64,000 nucleotides of DNA from Gottschalkia acidurici 9a (GTDB taxonomy: Bacteria; Bacillota; Clostridia; Tissierellales; Gottschalkiaceae). Under the pieces are notes generated by a model, which was not told the DNA's origin, ran no database searches, and worked only from the letters and a program-made list of their open reading frames with translations. Shown in pieces: positions 20,878 through 61,695 of the stretch; positions within the stretch are counted from its first letter, which is position 1; each line of letters opens with the position of its first letter. The position numbers were made by a program, and so were the translations under genes. The stretch spans positions 1,658,380-1,722,379 of the forward strand of contig NC_018664.1 in assembly GCF_000299355.1 (NCBI RefSeq). Reading direction: 5' to 3'.

Positions 20878-22137
20878 TTATTCTATAGCTAATATTTTCG
20901 TAATTTGTGCTGTTTTTTCTGGAGTTAAATTACTAAATATTTTTGCTAATTTAGGCTTTTTAAGCCTCTTCATAATTTCAACAGCTACTTTATAATCTGA
21001 TAGCTTATATCCTGGATGCTCTTTTATAGTAAATACAGTTATCTCCTGTTTATTTTCTAGGAGTTTTTCTATAGCCCTTGCAGCTTCTGAAGGAGCCATT
21101 TTATCATAAACTACCACTAGATCATCTACTTTTTTGTTATATTCTTTAAGAAAAGTCATTATGCTACTAATCTCCACTACAGACGATTCTTGTACTCCAA
21201 CCAATTCTTCCTCCTCTTTTATAGTAGAGAAAAGCTCCTCTATAAACTCTGGATCTTTAGAATTTACCAATACTTCAGCTGATTTTTGTGGACTTAAGTT
21301 CATATATATTCTTGATAATGCCTTTATAGAATATTTGTCTGTATTTCCTATTTCTTTTATAGAATCCTTAGGATCTTTTACAGAATATACTTGTGCTAAT
21401 TTTTGTCCCATAAAATTCAGTTCTTCTTCTTCAGCTCTTTTTTCATTTAGTAGGTTCTGTAGCTGATTTTTTCTACTCATATTTTCACTCGATAACTTGA
21501 ATAGAATATTGCTTCTCGAGCCTCCATCAAGGTAGTAAAGTATATTCACCGCCGCAGAATCATTCATATAAGATAATGCTTCAATAAATTCTTCTTCTGT
21601 TACTATATCTCCACGATTTATTTCTTCTACAGCTACTCTAGTTTTCATACCCTCTAACTTAGATGTTAACTCTCTAATTTGCAAAGTTTTATCACTTTCT
21701 ACTTCTTCATATAGATTAGATAACAGATCTTTTCTAAGCTCTAAATTTCTTACTTCTTTTAATATTTCTTCCGTTTTTTTAGATGATAGTTTATTCATAC
21801 GCTTAACTAATGTATTATATAATTTTTCATCTTCTTTTTTTACAATATATAGTTTATCTGCAGCACTTTTTTTATCTAATTCTTCTATGTAGTATTTTGC
21901 GATAGAGAGTTCTCTATCTACTAGCTCCGCTTTAGTTGGATAACTTCCTATTACACTTTTAACTACTGGTATCTTCCGTAGTATCTTATTAGCACTTTCT
22001 TTAAAGCTATCACTAACTAAGTATAAAAGCGTCATTATGGATAGTGGAATCACCACGAAAATAATTAATAGCGTCTTCTTTGCAGACCCTTTTTTCCTTA
22101 CCTCTTCTTTTTCATTTATTTCATCGTTAATAGGCAT
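20878..22137 (-). CDS. MotE/YlxF-like membrane protein with MgtE-N type domain
   Basis: A 419-residue protein in the ylxF/motE position between fliJ and fliK. A basic cytoplasmic N-terminus precedes one membrane helix at about 22-44. Helical coiled-coil-rich sequence follows. The C-terminal region repeats short helical motifs (ARIYMNLSPQKSAEVLVN-like and YDKMAPSEAARAIEKLL, FSNLTPEKTAQITKIL) similar to the MgtE N-terminal/FliG-like superhelix. It is larger than typical YlxF (~200 residues). It is probably a periplasmic chaperone or scaffold for the motor; that is inference from context. Confidence 0.75.
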   Translation of the reverse strand: MPINDEINEKEEVRKKGSAKKTLLIIFVVIPLSIMTLLYLVSDSFKESANKILRKIPVVKSVIGSYPTKAELVDRELSIAKYYIEELDKKSAADKLYIVKKEDEKLYNTLVKRMNKLSSKKTEEILKEVRNLELRKDLLSNLYEEVESDKTLQIRELTSKLEGMKTRVAVEEINRGDIVTEEEFIEALSYMNDSAAVNILYYLDGGSRSNILFKLSSENMSRKNQLQNLLNEKRAEEEELNFMGQKLAQVYSVKDPKDSIKEIGNTDKYSIKALSRIYMNLSPQKSAEVLVNSKDPEFIEELFSTIKEEEELVGVQESSVVEISSIMTFLKEYNKKVDDLVVVYDKMAPSEAARAIEKLLENKQEITVFTIKEHPGYKLSDYKVAVEIMKRLKKPKLAKIFSNLTPEKTAQITKILAIE

Positions 22138-22138
22138 T

Positions 22139-22258
22139 TTAATCCCCCGTTATATTAGTAGAACTACTGTAACTTACAAATTGATCATTAATTTTTTCTT
22201 CCTCTTTTTTTTGTTCATAAATATACTCATGATAATCTCTTACTTTTAATTTCTCCAT
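22139..22258 (-). pseudogene. fliJ: Detached C-terminal part of FliJ (39 codons, shifted frame)
   Basis: A short open frame starts at an ATG that overlaps the stop codon of the upstream fliJ frame and ends two bases before the motE-like ATG. Its product starts MEKLKVRDYHEYIYEQKKEE and continues with EEKINDQ. It resembles the C-terminal helix of FliJ, and adding its 39 residues to the upstream 110 gives the usual FliJ length of about 147-150. One additional A in the A8 run at 22261-22268 would fuse the two. It could be translated separately by coupling, but more likely it is the lost end of FliJ. Confidence 0.75.
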
Positions 22259-22590
22259 TATTTTTTTTCTTTAGTTGATTCTATTAACTCATATCTTGTT
22301 TTCTCTACTACATGCTCTGCTTCTTCTATTTTTTTATTTTGTACTTTTATTTTTTCTGCAATATCTGTTAGGCAAGAATTATATATTTTTAAACTTTCTA
22401 TAGTAGTTGTTTTCTCTACTATATTTTCTTTTTCTTTATTTAAAAAGTTTTTCATCTCTTCTATATTCTCTAATTTCTCTAGCTCTTGTTCTAACATCCT
22501 TTTAGCAGTGCCGTATTTACCCTTGTTTACATTTTCTACAGTTTCTCTATGATCTAATATCTTTTGTAATCTAAAATTAAATTTTGACAT
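22258..22590 (-). CDS. fliJ: Flagellar export chaperone FliJ, N-terminal 110 residues (frame interrupted)
   Basis: Coiled-coil protein immediately after fliI, starting MSKFNFRLQKILDHRETVE, the standard FliJ opening. FliJ is the stalk-like partner of the FliI ATPase. The frame ends after STKEKK because an A8 run leads straight into TAA. This removes about 40 C-terminal residues that are still encoded in the next frame. As written the protein would lack its C-terminal helix; see the adjoining entry. Confidence 0.88.
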   Translation of the reverse strand: MSKFNFRLQKILDHRETVENVNKGKYGTAKRMLEQELEKLENIEEMKNFLNKEKENIVEKTTTIESLKIYNSCLTDIAEKIKVQNKKIEEAEHVVEKTRYELIESTKEKK

Positions 22591-22594
22591 AACA

Positions 22595-23926
22595 CTACTC
22601 CTGTTCTACAAGAGATTTTAACATACTAGTTGTTTCATCAAAGTTATATTTTTCTAGAACATTTTGCTTTAAAAAATTATTTATACTATCTATAGAGTCT
22701 ATAGATTGATCTATTTTTTTACTAGTTCCTTTTTTATATGCACCTATATTTATAAGATCCTCTGACTCTTTATATGTTGCCATTAGATCCTTCACTTTAT
22801 TGGCTGTGGATATCTGTTCTTCATCACATATATTGCTCATAACCCTACTTATACTTTGAAGTACATCTATTGCAGGATAGTGATTTTGACTTGCTAGTTT
22901 TCTACTTAAAACTATATGCCCATCTAGTATACCTCTTACAGTATCTGTTATAGGCTCATTCATATCATCTCCATCTACAAGTACCGTATAAAGACCTGTT
23001 ATCGTTCCCTTTGATGAAGCGCCTGATCTTTCTAAAAGCTTCGGGAATACTGCAAACACAGAAGGCGTATATCCTCTAGTTACAGGTGGTTCTCCTATAG
23101 CCAATCCTATTTCTCTTTGAGCCATTGCAAACCTGGTTAATGAATCCATTAGCATAATTACATTTTTTCCTTTATCTCTAAAGTATTCTGCTATAGCAGT
23201 AGTTAACATAGCAGCTTTCATTCTAACTAATGCTGGCTGATCTGATGTAGCTATAACTAGTACAGACTTTTTCAATCCTTCTTCTTTCAAGTCATTTTCT
23301 ATAAACTCTCTAACTTCTCTTCCCCTCTCACCTATAAGTCCTATAACATTTATATCCGCTTCTGCATTTCTTGCTATCATTCCCATAAGTGTACTTTTTC
23401 CGACACCACTACCTGCAAATATACCTATCCTTTGTCCTTTTCCACAAGTTAGAAGGCCATCTATTGCTTTTACCCCTAAAGGAAGTACTTCTCTTATTGT
23501 CTTACGCTCTAACGGATTTGGTGGAGAATTAGATACAGAGTAATGTTTTTCTGTTTTTATTGATCCTTTTCCATCCATAGGATTTCCTAATCCGTCTATA
23601 ACTCTACCTATTAGCTGATCCCCAACATTTACTCTCAAAGAATGTCCGCTAGCTACTACGGTACTCCCAGGTCTTATTCCTTCCATTTCTCCAAATGGCA
23701 TTAAAAGTATTTTATCTTCTTTAAACCCAACCACCTCTGCTAATATAGGTTCTTGTTCATTAAATGGATATATATAACAAAGTTCACCTATGCTTGAAAG
23801 TGGACCCTCAGATTCAATAGTTAATCCAGTGACTTTAGTAATTTTTCCACTGTATTTAATGAATTCACTATCTTTAACTAGTTCTATATACTTTTTCATA
23901 TTTATATTTACCATATTATCACTCAC
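22595..23926 (-). CDS. fliI: Flagellar export ATPase FliI
   Basis: A 443-residue F1-beta-like ATPase. The Walker A is FAGSGVGKSTLMG at about 168-180. Walker B is VIMLMDSLTRFAMAQREIGL. Conserved ATPase segments follow, such as GSITGLYTV-type (here GTITGLYTVLVDGDDMNEPI). It energises export of flagellar subunits. A GTG at 23926 overlaps the fliH stop; an ATG at 23914 is the alternative start. Confidence 0.95.
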   Translation of the reverse strand: MSDNMVNINMKKYIELVKDSEFIKYSGKITKVTGLTIESEGPLSSIGELCYIYPFNEQEPILAEVVGFKEDKILLMPFGEMEGIRPGSTVVASGHSLRVNVGDQLIGRVIDGLGNPMDGKGSIKTEKHYSVSNSPPNPLERKTIREVLPLGVKAIDGLLTCGKGQRIGIFAGSGVGKSTLMGMIARNAEADINVIGLIGERGREVREFIENDLKEEGLKKSVLVIATSDQPALVRMKAAMLTTAIAEYFRDKGKNVIMLMDSLTRFAMAQREIGLAIGEPPVTRGYTPSVFAVFPKLLERSGASSKGTITGLYTVLVDGDDMNEPITDTVRGILDGHIVLSRKLASQNHYPAIDVLQSISRVMSNICDEEQISTANKVKDLMATYKESEDLINIGAYKKGTSKKIDQSIDSIDSINNFLKQNVLEKYNFDETTSMLKSLVEQE

Positions 23927-34117: not shown

Positions 34118-35330
34118 TTCAATACCTGCCTTTTAATATAATTAATTTACCAATGTCCTCTACTATAACTTCTATACTGTATATCACTAAATTCATTACA
34201 TCATCATTTCTATATAACTCTGATTTAGTAATTTAAACTTTATTTTTCATATTTTTATTTTTTTGAAGGACTAAGTTTTATCAAGTTTATATATTATTTA
34301 TATATACACCTCTTAATTTAAATCTTATTTCTAAAAAATCATCTAAAAACCACATTTATAATCAGTCTCGATTATAATAATATAAAGTAATAATGATATT
34401 TAATATAAGCTGCTATTAATATATCTTTGATAGGTTATGTTAAAACTTCTATTAATTTTTAGCTACTTAGGGAAATTTGTCTAGAAGTAATATTCTTGTA
34501 TGCAAGAGAAGTCTTTCATTATCTTAATATGATTTCAGCACTTACTAGTTCGTCATACTGATTATATAGTATGATAGAATATCTAAAAAACTTTTCGTTT
34601 ATAAAACCATTTAATTTTCAATACTTCATATATATTATATATTTAAATATTCTCTTAGTACTTATAGTTTTTTATAAAACAAATATCTTATTATTAAAAC
34701 GTTATTATACCATTAATCAGACATATTCATAGTTCTTTTACACATTTTTTGCTTTTAATATATAAAATTCTTCACTAGCTTCCTTTTTTATACCAAACAT
34801 ATTTTCTATATTAGTCTCATAGACATCAATCTTTACTTCACTATTTAGGAAAGATGCGACTTATTTAAGACTTTTTACCGTTATTATATATGTTTGTTTT
34901 ATAGCTTTCTATCTGTTTTAAATTTTAATAGTATAAATCTGATGATTATTTCAGATATAAAAAATTTGAGCCAGCAATTTTTTTATATATTTTTAAGCTT
35001 TTTCATAGAAGCATTCTAAGATTCTACTATTAATCACTAAAACATTCACTTTGTATATGTTCTTTTATTTGTATAGCCTTTATAAAATCTAATCTTAATT
35101 TCAGCTACTAATTTTATGTTTTTATTATAATTTGCATTTATTCTATGATAAAGACTTTATATTGTCAATTTTATATATTTTAGTTAACTTTATTATTCTA
35201 TATTTCACTCTATATACCTTTAAATATTTTCTTTTTCTGTAAAATAATTTCACACCCTAAAATGAATAAAATAATTTTACATGATTTAAATCTAATTTTA
35301 TGGGAATAATACAAAAAAGGAGTGGTTCTA
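34118..35330. other. Gene-poor 1.2-kb stretch, decayed
   Basis: No complete gene is visible. The minus strand contains short stretches with coding-like composition broken by stops and frameshifts, the clearest at 34738-34860. In relatives this gap often contains comM/yifB or yraN, but I cannot match the remnants to either. The part next to DUF3787 is simple A/T-rich sequence. Confidence 0.5.
34738..34860 (-). pseudogene. Unidentified C-terminal gene remnant
   Basis: A 40-codon frame reads VASFLNSEVKIDVYETNIEN and continues MFGIKKEASEEFYILKAKNV before a TAA. The composition looks like true protein, unlike the surrounding sequence. It has no start codon and is preceded by an in-frame stop. Further coding-like pieces in shifting frames occur up to about 35220 (for example LDFIKAIQIKEHIQSECFSD). 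I do not recognise the family. Confidence 0.45.
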
Positions 35331-35522
35331 ATGACTAAAGATAATGTTAAAAATAATACATGTAATTATGTAAATAGAAAAAAGAATAATTCTCAAATTG
35401 AAAGTCACGAAACTGCAGCGTGGGCTGAAATTGAAAAACAAGAAACTGAAGCTAAGGTTCCTGTTCCTAGTTTAGAAAATGTGGAAGAAGCTAAGGAATG
35501 GGTCGAAGAAAACAAAAAATAA
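35331..35522 (+). CDS. Small DUF3787-type protein
   Basis: A 63-residue protein, the only plus-strand gene supported in the window. It is hydrophilic, Lys/Glu-rich, with HETAAWAEIEK in the middle; a conserved TAAWA motif is what I associate with the clostridial family DUF3787. The start is the ATG at 35331, eight bases after AAGGAG; the in-frame GTG at 35322 lies inside that site. A symmetrical terminator follows. The function is unknown. Confidence 0.75.
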   Translation: MTKDNVKNNTCNYVNRKKNNSQIESHETAAWAEIEKQETEAKVPVPSLENVEEAKEWVEENKK

Positions 35523-36355: not shown

Positions 36356-36657
36356 CTAAATAAGATAACTATCTTTATATTTCTTTTCTTGGTCTAACCT
36401 ATATACATGACTTAATATTTCTGCAACTGCAGTATATAGTTCCTCTGGAATTTCATCATTTATTTCTAAGTTAACTAATTCATTAGCCAATGATTCATTC
36501 TCTAGTGATTTAATACCTTCTTCTTTTCCTTTTTCTATTATGTTTTCTGCAACCTCACCAAAGCCCTTAGCAATAACTTTTGGAGCTTCATCTAAATCTT
36601 TATCATATTTTAGTGCAACTGCAACTTTTCTTTTATTTTTTCTTTCACATCAATCAC
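36356..36657 (-). pseudogene. FlhB C-terminal domain-like protein, start frame broken
   Basis: An open frame of about 90 codons reads RKVAVALKYDKDLDEAPKVI, then AKGFGEVAENIIEKGKEEG, ending near EELYTAVAEILSHVYRL. This is the cytoplasmic switch domain of FlhB without the NPTH site and membrane part, a small family (FlhB-like/YlqH) often found near rnhB. The frame has no start codon; a stop precedes it. A GTG at 36657 overlapping the upstream stop is in another frame, and one additional A in the A6 run at 36636-36641 would connect them. Confidence 0.8.
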
Positions 36658-36917
36658 ACCTTAACATTAAGCATATAGTTAATACTATTCTCATAAGATA
36701 TCAAGTTTAGAATATTTTCTTCCTCATGCTTATTAATATATATAAATACATTCTCATATCCTTTAGATTGTAAACTTTCTTTTAAATCATTTATATTTTC
36801 TTCAAAGAGATTTAAATATTCTTTTTTCACCTTAAAGTTTACACTAAGCCTATCGTACATGAAATCACACAGTATTTTAACATTTTCAAGATTTGTAGTA
36901 TTTAAGGATATATACAC
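36654..36917 (-). pseudogene. FliK-like protein, third fragment (C-terminal domain)
   Basis: An 87-codon frame starting MYISLNTTNLENVKILCDFM. The alternation of strands and helices (VKIL, LSVNFKVKKEYLN, DLKESLQSKGYENVFIYINK) resembles a degenerate FliK C-terminal domain. Deleting one A from the A6 run at 36934-36939 would join it in frame to the preceding fragment as KVAKKSDNIKVYISLNTTNL. It overlaps the start of the FlhB-like gene. Confidence 0.6.
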
Positions 36918-60760: not shown

Positions 60761-61413
60761 TTACCTTGTCCTATTTAACTTATGTCTAAGTATATGTGTT
60801 TCTAGATCTGCGAGTCTTACTGGTATAGGTAGTTTACTTTCTCTATTTATTAGGCTCATTGCTATTTTATAACTAGTATCTAAATCTATGTAGTTATCAC
60901 TGGATACAAATATAGGCTTAACATCCTTCAGTGTTCTCACAGCTCTTCCATAAACTTCTCCTCCTATTATTATATCGTTAAATGCTCCTTTTTCATTTAC
61001 AGGCATATCAAATTCTTTTCCCTTAATTTTTAAATAACTCTTAGCTATACCTATTGTTGGTTTATTTAGAAAGAATGATGCATGAGTTGCTATACCCATA
61101 TGGTTATAGTGCAAGTATCCGTTTCCATCAAACAGAAATACGTCTGGACATATAGTTAATTTTTTAGCTGATTCTATAATTAAAGGCATTTCTCTAAAAC
61201 TTCGTTTGTTTTATAGTCTATAACTACGATACTACATACCCCATATGACTTTTCATCCTCATCCCAATATGCTAAATCTACTCCAGCACATATGTTTATA
61301 TCTTCTAATCTAACATTTTTATTTAAGTTAATCTTTTCTTTTAAGCTAGTCTGCACTTTTAAAAGTTCTTCTTCTGTTTTTAGGTTGAAATCATGAATAT
61401 AATTTACTTTCAA
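60761..61413 (-). pseudogene. nfi: Endonuclease V, broken by an internal deletion
   Basis: The likely start is the TTG at 61413, seven bases after GGAGGGAG. The N-terminal half (INICAGVDLAYWDEDEKSY) has the first catalytic Asp. The C-terminal half in another frame starts at REMPLIIESAKKL and contains FLFDGNGYLHYNHMGIATHA and PTIGIAKSYLKIKG. The roughly 20-residue segment normally between them (the PYIPG loop before FRE) is missing, and the frame shifts at TTTAGAGAA. The gene once cut DNA at deoxyinosine. It is not expected to work now. Confidence 0.88.
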
Positions 61414-61459
61414 GTAATATCTCCCTCCTATATCATATCTTCTATAATTATTTTTCTGC

Positions 61460-61695
61460 CTAATCCTCTTCTTTCTCATCCTCTATCATTTGAACAAAAT
61501 AGTGCATACAGGTATCCCATACATCAGGCTCTGATAAAAAAGATTTGCTATCTATATTTAAACTAAATTTTTCTGCTTATTAAAAATCTTATGTTAAAAA
61601 TGCTTTTATTGATCGTACTACATCTTGTCCCACAAATTATATTCAAATGAAACATATCCATAATTAATGTTATTTACATTATCAATAAGATAGCT
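61460..61695 (-). pseudogene. Remnants of one or two small hypothetical genes
   Basis: Two minus-strand pieces without starts. The first reads SYLIDNVNNINYGYVSFEYN then LWDKM and a stop; one missing base would continue it as DVVRSIKAFLT. The second reads AEKFSLNIDSKSFLSEPDVW then DTCMHYFVQMIEDEKEED. The sequence character is like small immunity-type proteins. The second piece overlaps the nfi upstream region. Confidence 0.45.

Follow-up and report, generated by a model that had tools for sequence, protein, structure and literature searches.

A one-base frame break in fliJ of Gottschalkia acidurici 9a that probably reflects a homopolymer deletion in the assembly

Introduction

In the genome assembly of Gottschalkia acidurici 9a the flagellar gene fliJ is distributed over two overlapping reading frames, which raises the question of whether the cell makes a shortened FliJ, restores the full protein from a broken gene, or carries an intact gene that is only misrepresented in the assembled sequence. 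A first-pass annotation of this DNA attributed the split to an apparent one-base shift in a run of eight As and offered weakened motility, repair by slippage, or a sequencing error as its consequences. We approached this question within the window, i.e. the whole analysed stretch of 64,000 nucleotides (NC_018664.1, positions 1,658,380 to 1,722,379), in further stretches of the same genome, and in 40 related genomes, three of which belong to the same family (two of them with FliJ) and none to the same genus. The features discussed are listed in Table 1.

Table 1. Positions of the fliJ locus and of further interrupted genes (positions refer to the window unless another stretch is named).
Feature	Position	Strand	Description and basis
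fliJ, first piece	22258..22590	minus	110 codons, ATG to TAA; open reading frame and Pfam FliJ match
A8 run (T8 on the plus strand)	22261..22268	minus	directly 5' of the premature TAA
fliJ, second piece	22139..22258	minus	39 codons; translation, Pfam FliJ match, alignment of relatives
motE, downstream open reading frame	20878..22137	minus	419 aa, undisturbed
fliI, export ATPase, upstream neighbour	22595..23926	minus	undisturbed; NCBIfam TIGR03497, residues 27-439, above cut-off
Small FlhB-like gene	36359..36660	minus	second apparent one-base loss in the window; frame scan, Pfam, interval
Endonuclease V	60764..61482	minus	two frames
aroK (shikimate kinase)	L065:13125..13615	plus	split by an apparent one-base loss

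Results

The fliJ gene is divided at an A run

The first fliJ frame is preceded by a ribosome-binding-site-like AGGAG and stops after codon 110 at GAAAAAAAATAA, where the minus strand reads GAA AAA AAA TAA. The second frame opens at an ATG that overlaps this stop (TAATG), and no ribosome-binding-site-like sequence was seen in the sequence read 5' of this ATG. Its own stop is separated from the ATG of motE (22137) by a single base, and not by two as had been stated in the first-pass annotation, and the ribosome-binding-site-like GGGGG of motE is located inside the end of the second piece. The name motE was likewise adopted from that annotation, because the protein gave only a weak Pfam MgtE_N match below the cut-off and no NCBIfam match. 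When both pieces were compared with the Pfam FliJ profile (PF02050), the 110-residue piece covered positions 4-90 (E 4.7e-8, above cut-off) and the 39-residue piece positions 92-121 (E 0.0066, below the cut-off on its own), so that the two matches abut and together extend over the length of the family. As assembled, the gene thus consists of 110 + 39 codons in place of a single coiled-coil chain of about 145-160 residues. Since a TAA lying shortly 5' closes off the second frame, the shift must have its place within TAAAGAAAAAAAATAA, the permissible interval of 16 bases that was computed for the frame change and that is filled by the A run. The gene sits between fliI and downstream flagellar genes and is present as a single copy, as a search across the genome for a second intact fliJ found none. 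A solved structure on which the truncation could be mapped was also sought with the sequence of one relative, and this search returned no FliJ match at E values up to 10.

FliJ was present in 29 of the 40 related genomes, one of these proteins (L033) scoring below the family cut-off, and in all 29 it is encoded by a single frame, 144-163 aa long and free of internal stops; none of them has a 110-residue FliJ accompanied by a separate 39-residue protein. The two pieces from the window were joined by one unknown residue (X) for alignment, and every one of the 29 relatives has a residue at this position and no gap at the join. Identity to the window was in each case higher for the C-terminal than for the N-terminal piece, reaching 62% and 45%, respectively, in the best relative, a member of the same family. 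Together with the profile matches and the narrow interval, this alignment confirms that the two frames belong to one fliJ gene and did not arise by chance, and it bears out the earlier proposals that fliJ is divided by what looks like a one-base shift and that the 39-residue frame corresponds to the missing C-terminus of FliJ. At this place in the alignment, the maximal A run was three to seven bases long in 28 relatives and nine in a single one (L031), where it is in frame, and an out-of-frame run was found in none of the 29. Therefore, neither a slippery site nor a contingency run is conserved here; the site is a lysine-rich motif (KEKK-I) in which the codons that happen to be used in this AT-rich genome (GC 0.30) make up a long A run.

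The flagellar neighbours are intact

All ten flagellar open reading frames tested were whole by length and none was interrupted, and nine of them had NCBIfam matches. FliE (residues 32-101), FliF, FliG, FliI, FlhB, FlhA and FliM were matched above the equivalog cut-off over nearly their full length, and FliH and FlgE over long stretches below their equivalog cut-offs, FlgE also scoring above a subfamily cut-off. There is thus no sign of decay in the operon. The sole other flagellar-type lesion noticed in the window affects the small FlhB-like gene, whose GTG start, within 36610-36652, is out of frame with the body of the gene, the two being separated by an A6 run. The body matches positions 261-335 of Pfam Bac_export_2 and has no in-frame start codon before the conserved AVAL motif; in seven relatives (L100-L106) this motif is preceded by an in-frame ATG or TTG. 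In the same part of the window, a frame of 66 codons ending VEEAKEWVEENKK was observed on the opposite strand (35322-35522, plus) in an otherwise gene-poor stretch of 1.4 kb, and it could represent a small gene.

One-base losses occur in other conserved genes

To place the fliJ break in the context of the genome, a codon-usage frame-break scan was run on 864 kb, or 28% of the genome, made up of the window and 40 further stretches of 20 kb each. It returned 53 calls, 37 losses and 16 gains. On visual inspection most of these were attributed to boundaries between genes, to antisense frames or to mobile DNA (genes of transposases, integrases and prophages) and were not counted; the call in L068, for instance, marks the boundary between two ThrE-type genes. 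In non-mobile genes, nine one-base losses were counted by eye in the 864 kb versus one gain. The losses affect fliJ, the FlhB-like gene, aroK, an L7Ae-type (ylxQ-like) gene, the ATPase gene of an ABC transporter, a DUF364 gene, a GH18 gene, a response regulator gene and a Cas3-like gene, those in the ABC-transporter ATPase, response regulator and Cas3-like genes having been assigned partly on eye reading. The scan did not pick up fliJ, because the ATG overlapping its stop makes a legal overlap. The single gain is a second shift in the Cas3-like helicase gene (L061:2521-4776, plus), compensating 95 bases later for the loss in the same gene. When the pieces were joined by X, Pfam matches ran across the join in the shikimate kinase (SKI, positions 1-158), L7Ae (2-92) and GH18 (21-317) genes, and the two pieces of the DUF364 gene matched positions 1-106 and 109-146.

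The strongest single case is aroK. It is the only clear shikimate kinase gene in the genome, the other match covering 34 of 159 positions, and the seven neighbours tested in the aro operon, encoding DAHP synthase, prephenate dehydrogenase, AroB, AroA, AroC, chorismate mutase/prephenate dehydratase and dehydroquinase, are uninterrupted. To lose the shikimate kinase step alone would be odd for a living cell.

Eight losses were examined base by base, namely seven, one of them in a phage terminase-like gene, and fliJ, and each had an A or T run of five to eight within its possible interval. With length-matched coding intervals drawn at random, the product probability of finding such a run in all eight is 1.7e-5, a value that is tempered by the selection of the losses by eye, since run-rich cases may therefore be over-represented. 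The interval that the scan itself gave for the response regulator contains a G5 run and not an A run. In this gene (L072:3373-4091, minus) the frame change was observed together with a separate in-frame TAG before the DNA-binding end. Another observation made by eye concerns L043:4865-5617 (plus), where a zinc-ribbon-like stretch (CSSCGKK) is followed by an in-frame TGA and then directly by a kinase-like frame.

Other lesions were of a different kind. Mobile genes were broken in both directions, with losses in the terminase-like gene, L045, L052 and L055 and gains in L045, L049, L052 and L055, and the gain in L052, which separates matches to HTH_36 and DnaB_2, may represent the genuine gain of one base by a phage gene. 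Scan breaks in L051 (18392), L059 (12562) and L071 were put in neither class. The endonuclease V gene is found in two frames that match profile positions 2-52 and 73-197 of 198, leaving about 20 profile positions missing, and its break looks like a real internal deletion; a PhzF-like fragment is also among the lesions that resemble real decay.

We also considered, and rejected, the idea that A/T runs are shortened throughout the assembly, as the run-length spectra of this genome do not stand out from those of ten sampled relatives and A/T runs of at least eight are not rarer here. Compression of runs would thus be at most occasional. Inside open frames we counted 63 A8 and three A9 runs. In a control, 400 kb of ten relatives were subjected to the same frame-break scan. 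Mixed breaks were found in the kdp operon of one relative (G002), one-base losses at A runs in hslU and fliM of another with a single-contig assembly (G009), and no clear breaks, judged by eye, in the remaining eight. The hslU and fliM losses (L093, around 16387 and 477, minus) were noted as observations on G009, whose base calls may merit checking against reads.

Discussion

In summary, the fliJ break probably stems from a one-base deletion in a homopolymer that was left uncorrected in the assembly. One A would have been dropped from the run in the assembled sequence and not in the cell, which would accordingly make a normal FliJ some 150 residues long. Since several ordinary genes show a similar one-base loss, an error in the sequence is likelier than new biology, and for the same reason, that other conserved genes are affected in this way, a sequencing or assembly error is favoured among the three consequences offered in the first-pass annotation, over weakened motility and over slippage. 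The losses at homopolymers outside fliJ are found in genes that would be expected to be intact, with the reservation that they were selected by eye, and we infer that they are call errors and not mutations. The assembly, a single contig of 3,105,335 bases (3.1 Mb), presumably rests on long reads. According to the Kastor report, indel errors in long reads are mostly false deletions in homopolymers of two to eight, mostly of A or T (PMC12007338). Against an assembly error stand the unremarkable run spectra and the presence of numerous A8 and some A9 runs in open frames, as well as the endonuclease V gene, the PhzF-like fragment and the mobile genes broken both ways, all of which resemble real decay. 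If the assembly is nevertheless at fault at fliJ, the interruptions of aroK, the FlhB-like gene, the response regulator and other apparent pseudogenes should not be taken as biology until the reads have been checked. In our ranking this reading is followed by a real mutation or a reversible run, then by a real site that is rescued, and last by two separate proteins.

It is possible, if unlikely, that the A run has indeed contracted recently in the organism, either as a loss in the laboratory or as a reversible, phase-variable event, so that a FliJ of 110 residues would be made and flagellar export would be poor until reversal. Long A runs of this kind are mutable. The full conservation of the C-terminal piece is what a young or reversible lesion predicts, and coding A9 runs are rare in this genome relative to A8 runs. 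In Salmonella, mutants of fliJ are reported to be leaky-motile (PMC4230889), and a real loss of fliJ would thus be survivable and not lethal. However, aroK and further conserved genes show similar losses, and these call for one common cause; phase variation does not fit a shikimate kinase gene. The relatives, with their shorter runs and the single in-frame run of nine, also provide no conserved contingency run. Among the titles listed in a literature search, none concerned a frame-broken or phase-variable fliJ.

We regard it as quite unlikely that the A8 run is real and that part of the message is restored, either by RNA polymerase adding an A or by ribosomes slipping back one base on A_AAA_AAA. 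Both events would yield the same full-length FliJ beside the 110-residue form. The heptamer A_AAA_AAA, a slippery heptamer of the dnaX type, is present in the right phase and is followed at once by TAA. We take the SctO proteins, represented by Spa13, and FliJ to correspond, and the first fliJ piece additionally gave a weak YscO-like Pfam match below the cut-off. Spa13 is reported to be the stalk in the pore of the export ATPase of Shigella type III secretion (PMC7762205), and the spa13 gene offers a precedent for a C-terminal extension that depends on slippage: slippage after 58 codons is reported to add a 112-residue extension to 25-30% of the product, and this extension is needed for secretion (PMC5009743). 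On the other hand, E. coli RNA polymerase is reported to show no detectable slippage on runs of fewer than seven T or eight A and to slip on T7 and T8 at only 5% and 10%, respectively (PMC6260861), which puts the fliJ run at the lower limit given there for A runs. Moreover, the 90 bases after the shift showed no stimulatory stem-loop better than in shuffled sequences (fold z +1.15; of 200 shuffles, 179 fold equally well or better, pseudoknots lying outside the model), and no Shine-Dalgarno-like, G-rich stimulator was present in the sequence read upstream of the run. The combination of a slippery run with an out-of-frame arrangement is also not conserved among the 29 relatives, all of which are in frame. 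As a more specific form of this idea, it is very unlikely that polymerase slippage on a real A8 run or a -1 slip at A_AAA_AAA_TAA would produce a flagellar export stalk in two lengths, as is reported for Spa13. If this were true, the independent origin of such a frame change in two branches of the export machinery would suggest that a short form of the stalk is useful, and a real A8 run would make fliJ a flagellar counterpart of spa13 and a simple test bed for export stalks of two lengths.

Finally, a 110-residue FliJ and a separate 39-residue protein that work together, the second being made by stop-start re-initiation, are extremely improbable, because the TAATG overlap permits coupled re-initiation but the second ATG lacks a ribosome-binding-site-like sequence upstream and both parts form one chain in all 29 relatives.

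Comparison with known systems

The flagellar export stalk family (PF02050) accommodates both pieces from the window, which match it at abutting positions and align to the 29 relatives, although fliJ of the window differs from all of these intact genes in that its frame is broken after residue 110. It resembles spa13 in that both genes encode an export stalk and have a homopolymer at which the reading continues, for the C-terminal part, in a different frame. In spa13, however, the shift occurs after 58 codons, precedes an extension of 112 residues and has a measured yield, whereas in fliJ it would occur after 110 codons and precede 39 residues at an A8 run that is not conserved. Rescue of frames at poly(A) tracts is also reported from the insect endosymbionts Buchnera and Blochmannia (PMC5009743), which share with the present organism an AT-rich genome and frames broken at A runs, but the genome studied here is 3.1 Mb in size. 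The homopolymer deletion errors of long-read assemblies described in the Kastor report are a parallel to the preferred reading: the present assembly likewise has one-base losses at A/T runs in otherwise conserved genes, although at a rate far below that of the nanopore-only example given there, with 2900 errors in one genome (PMC12007338).
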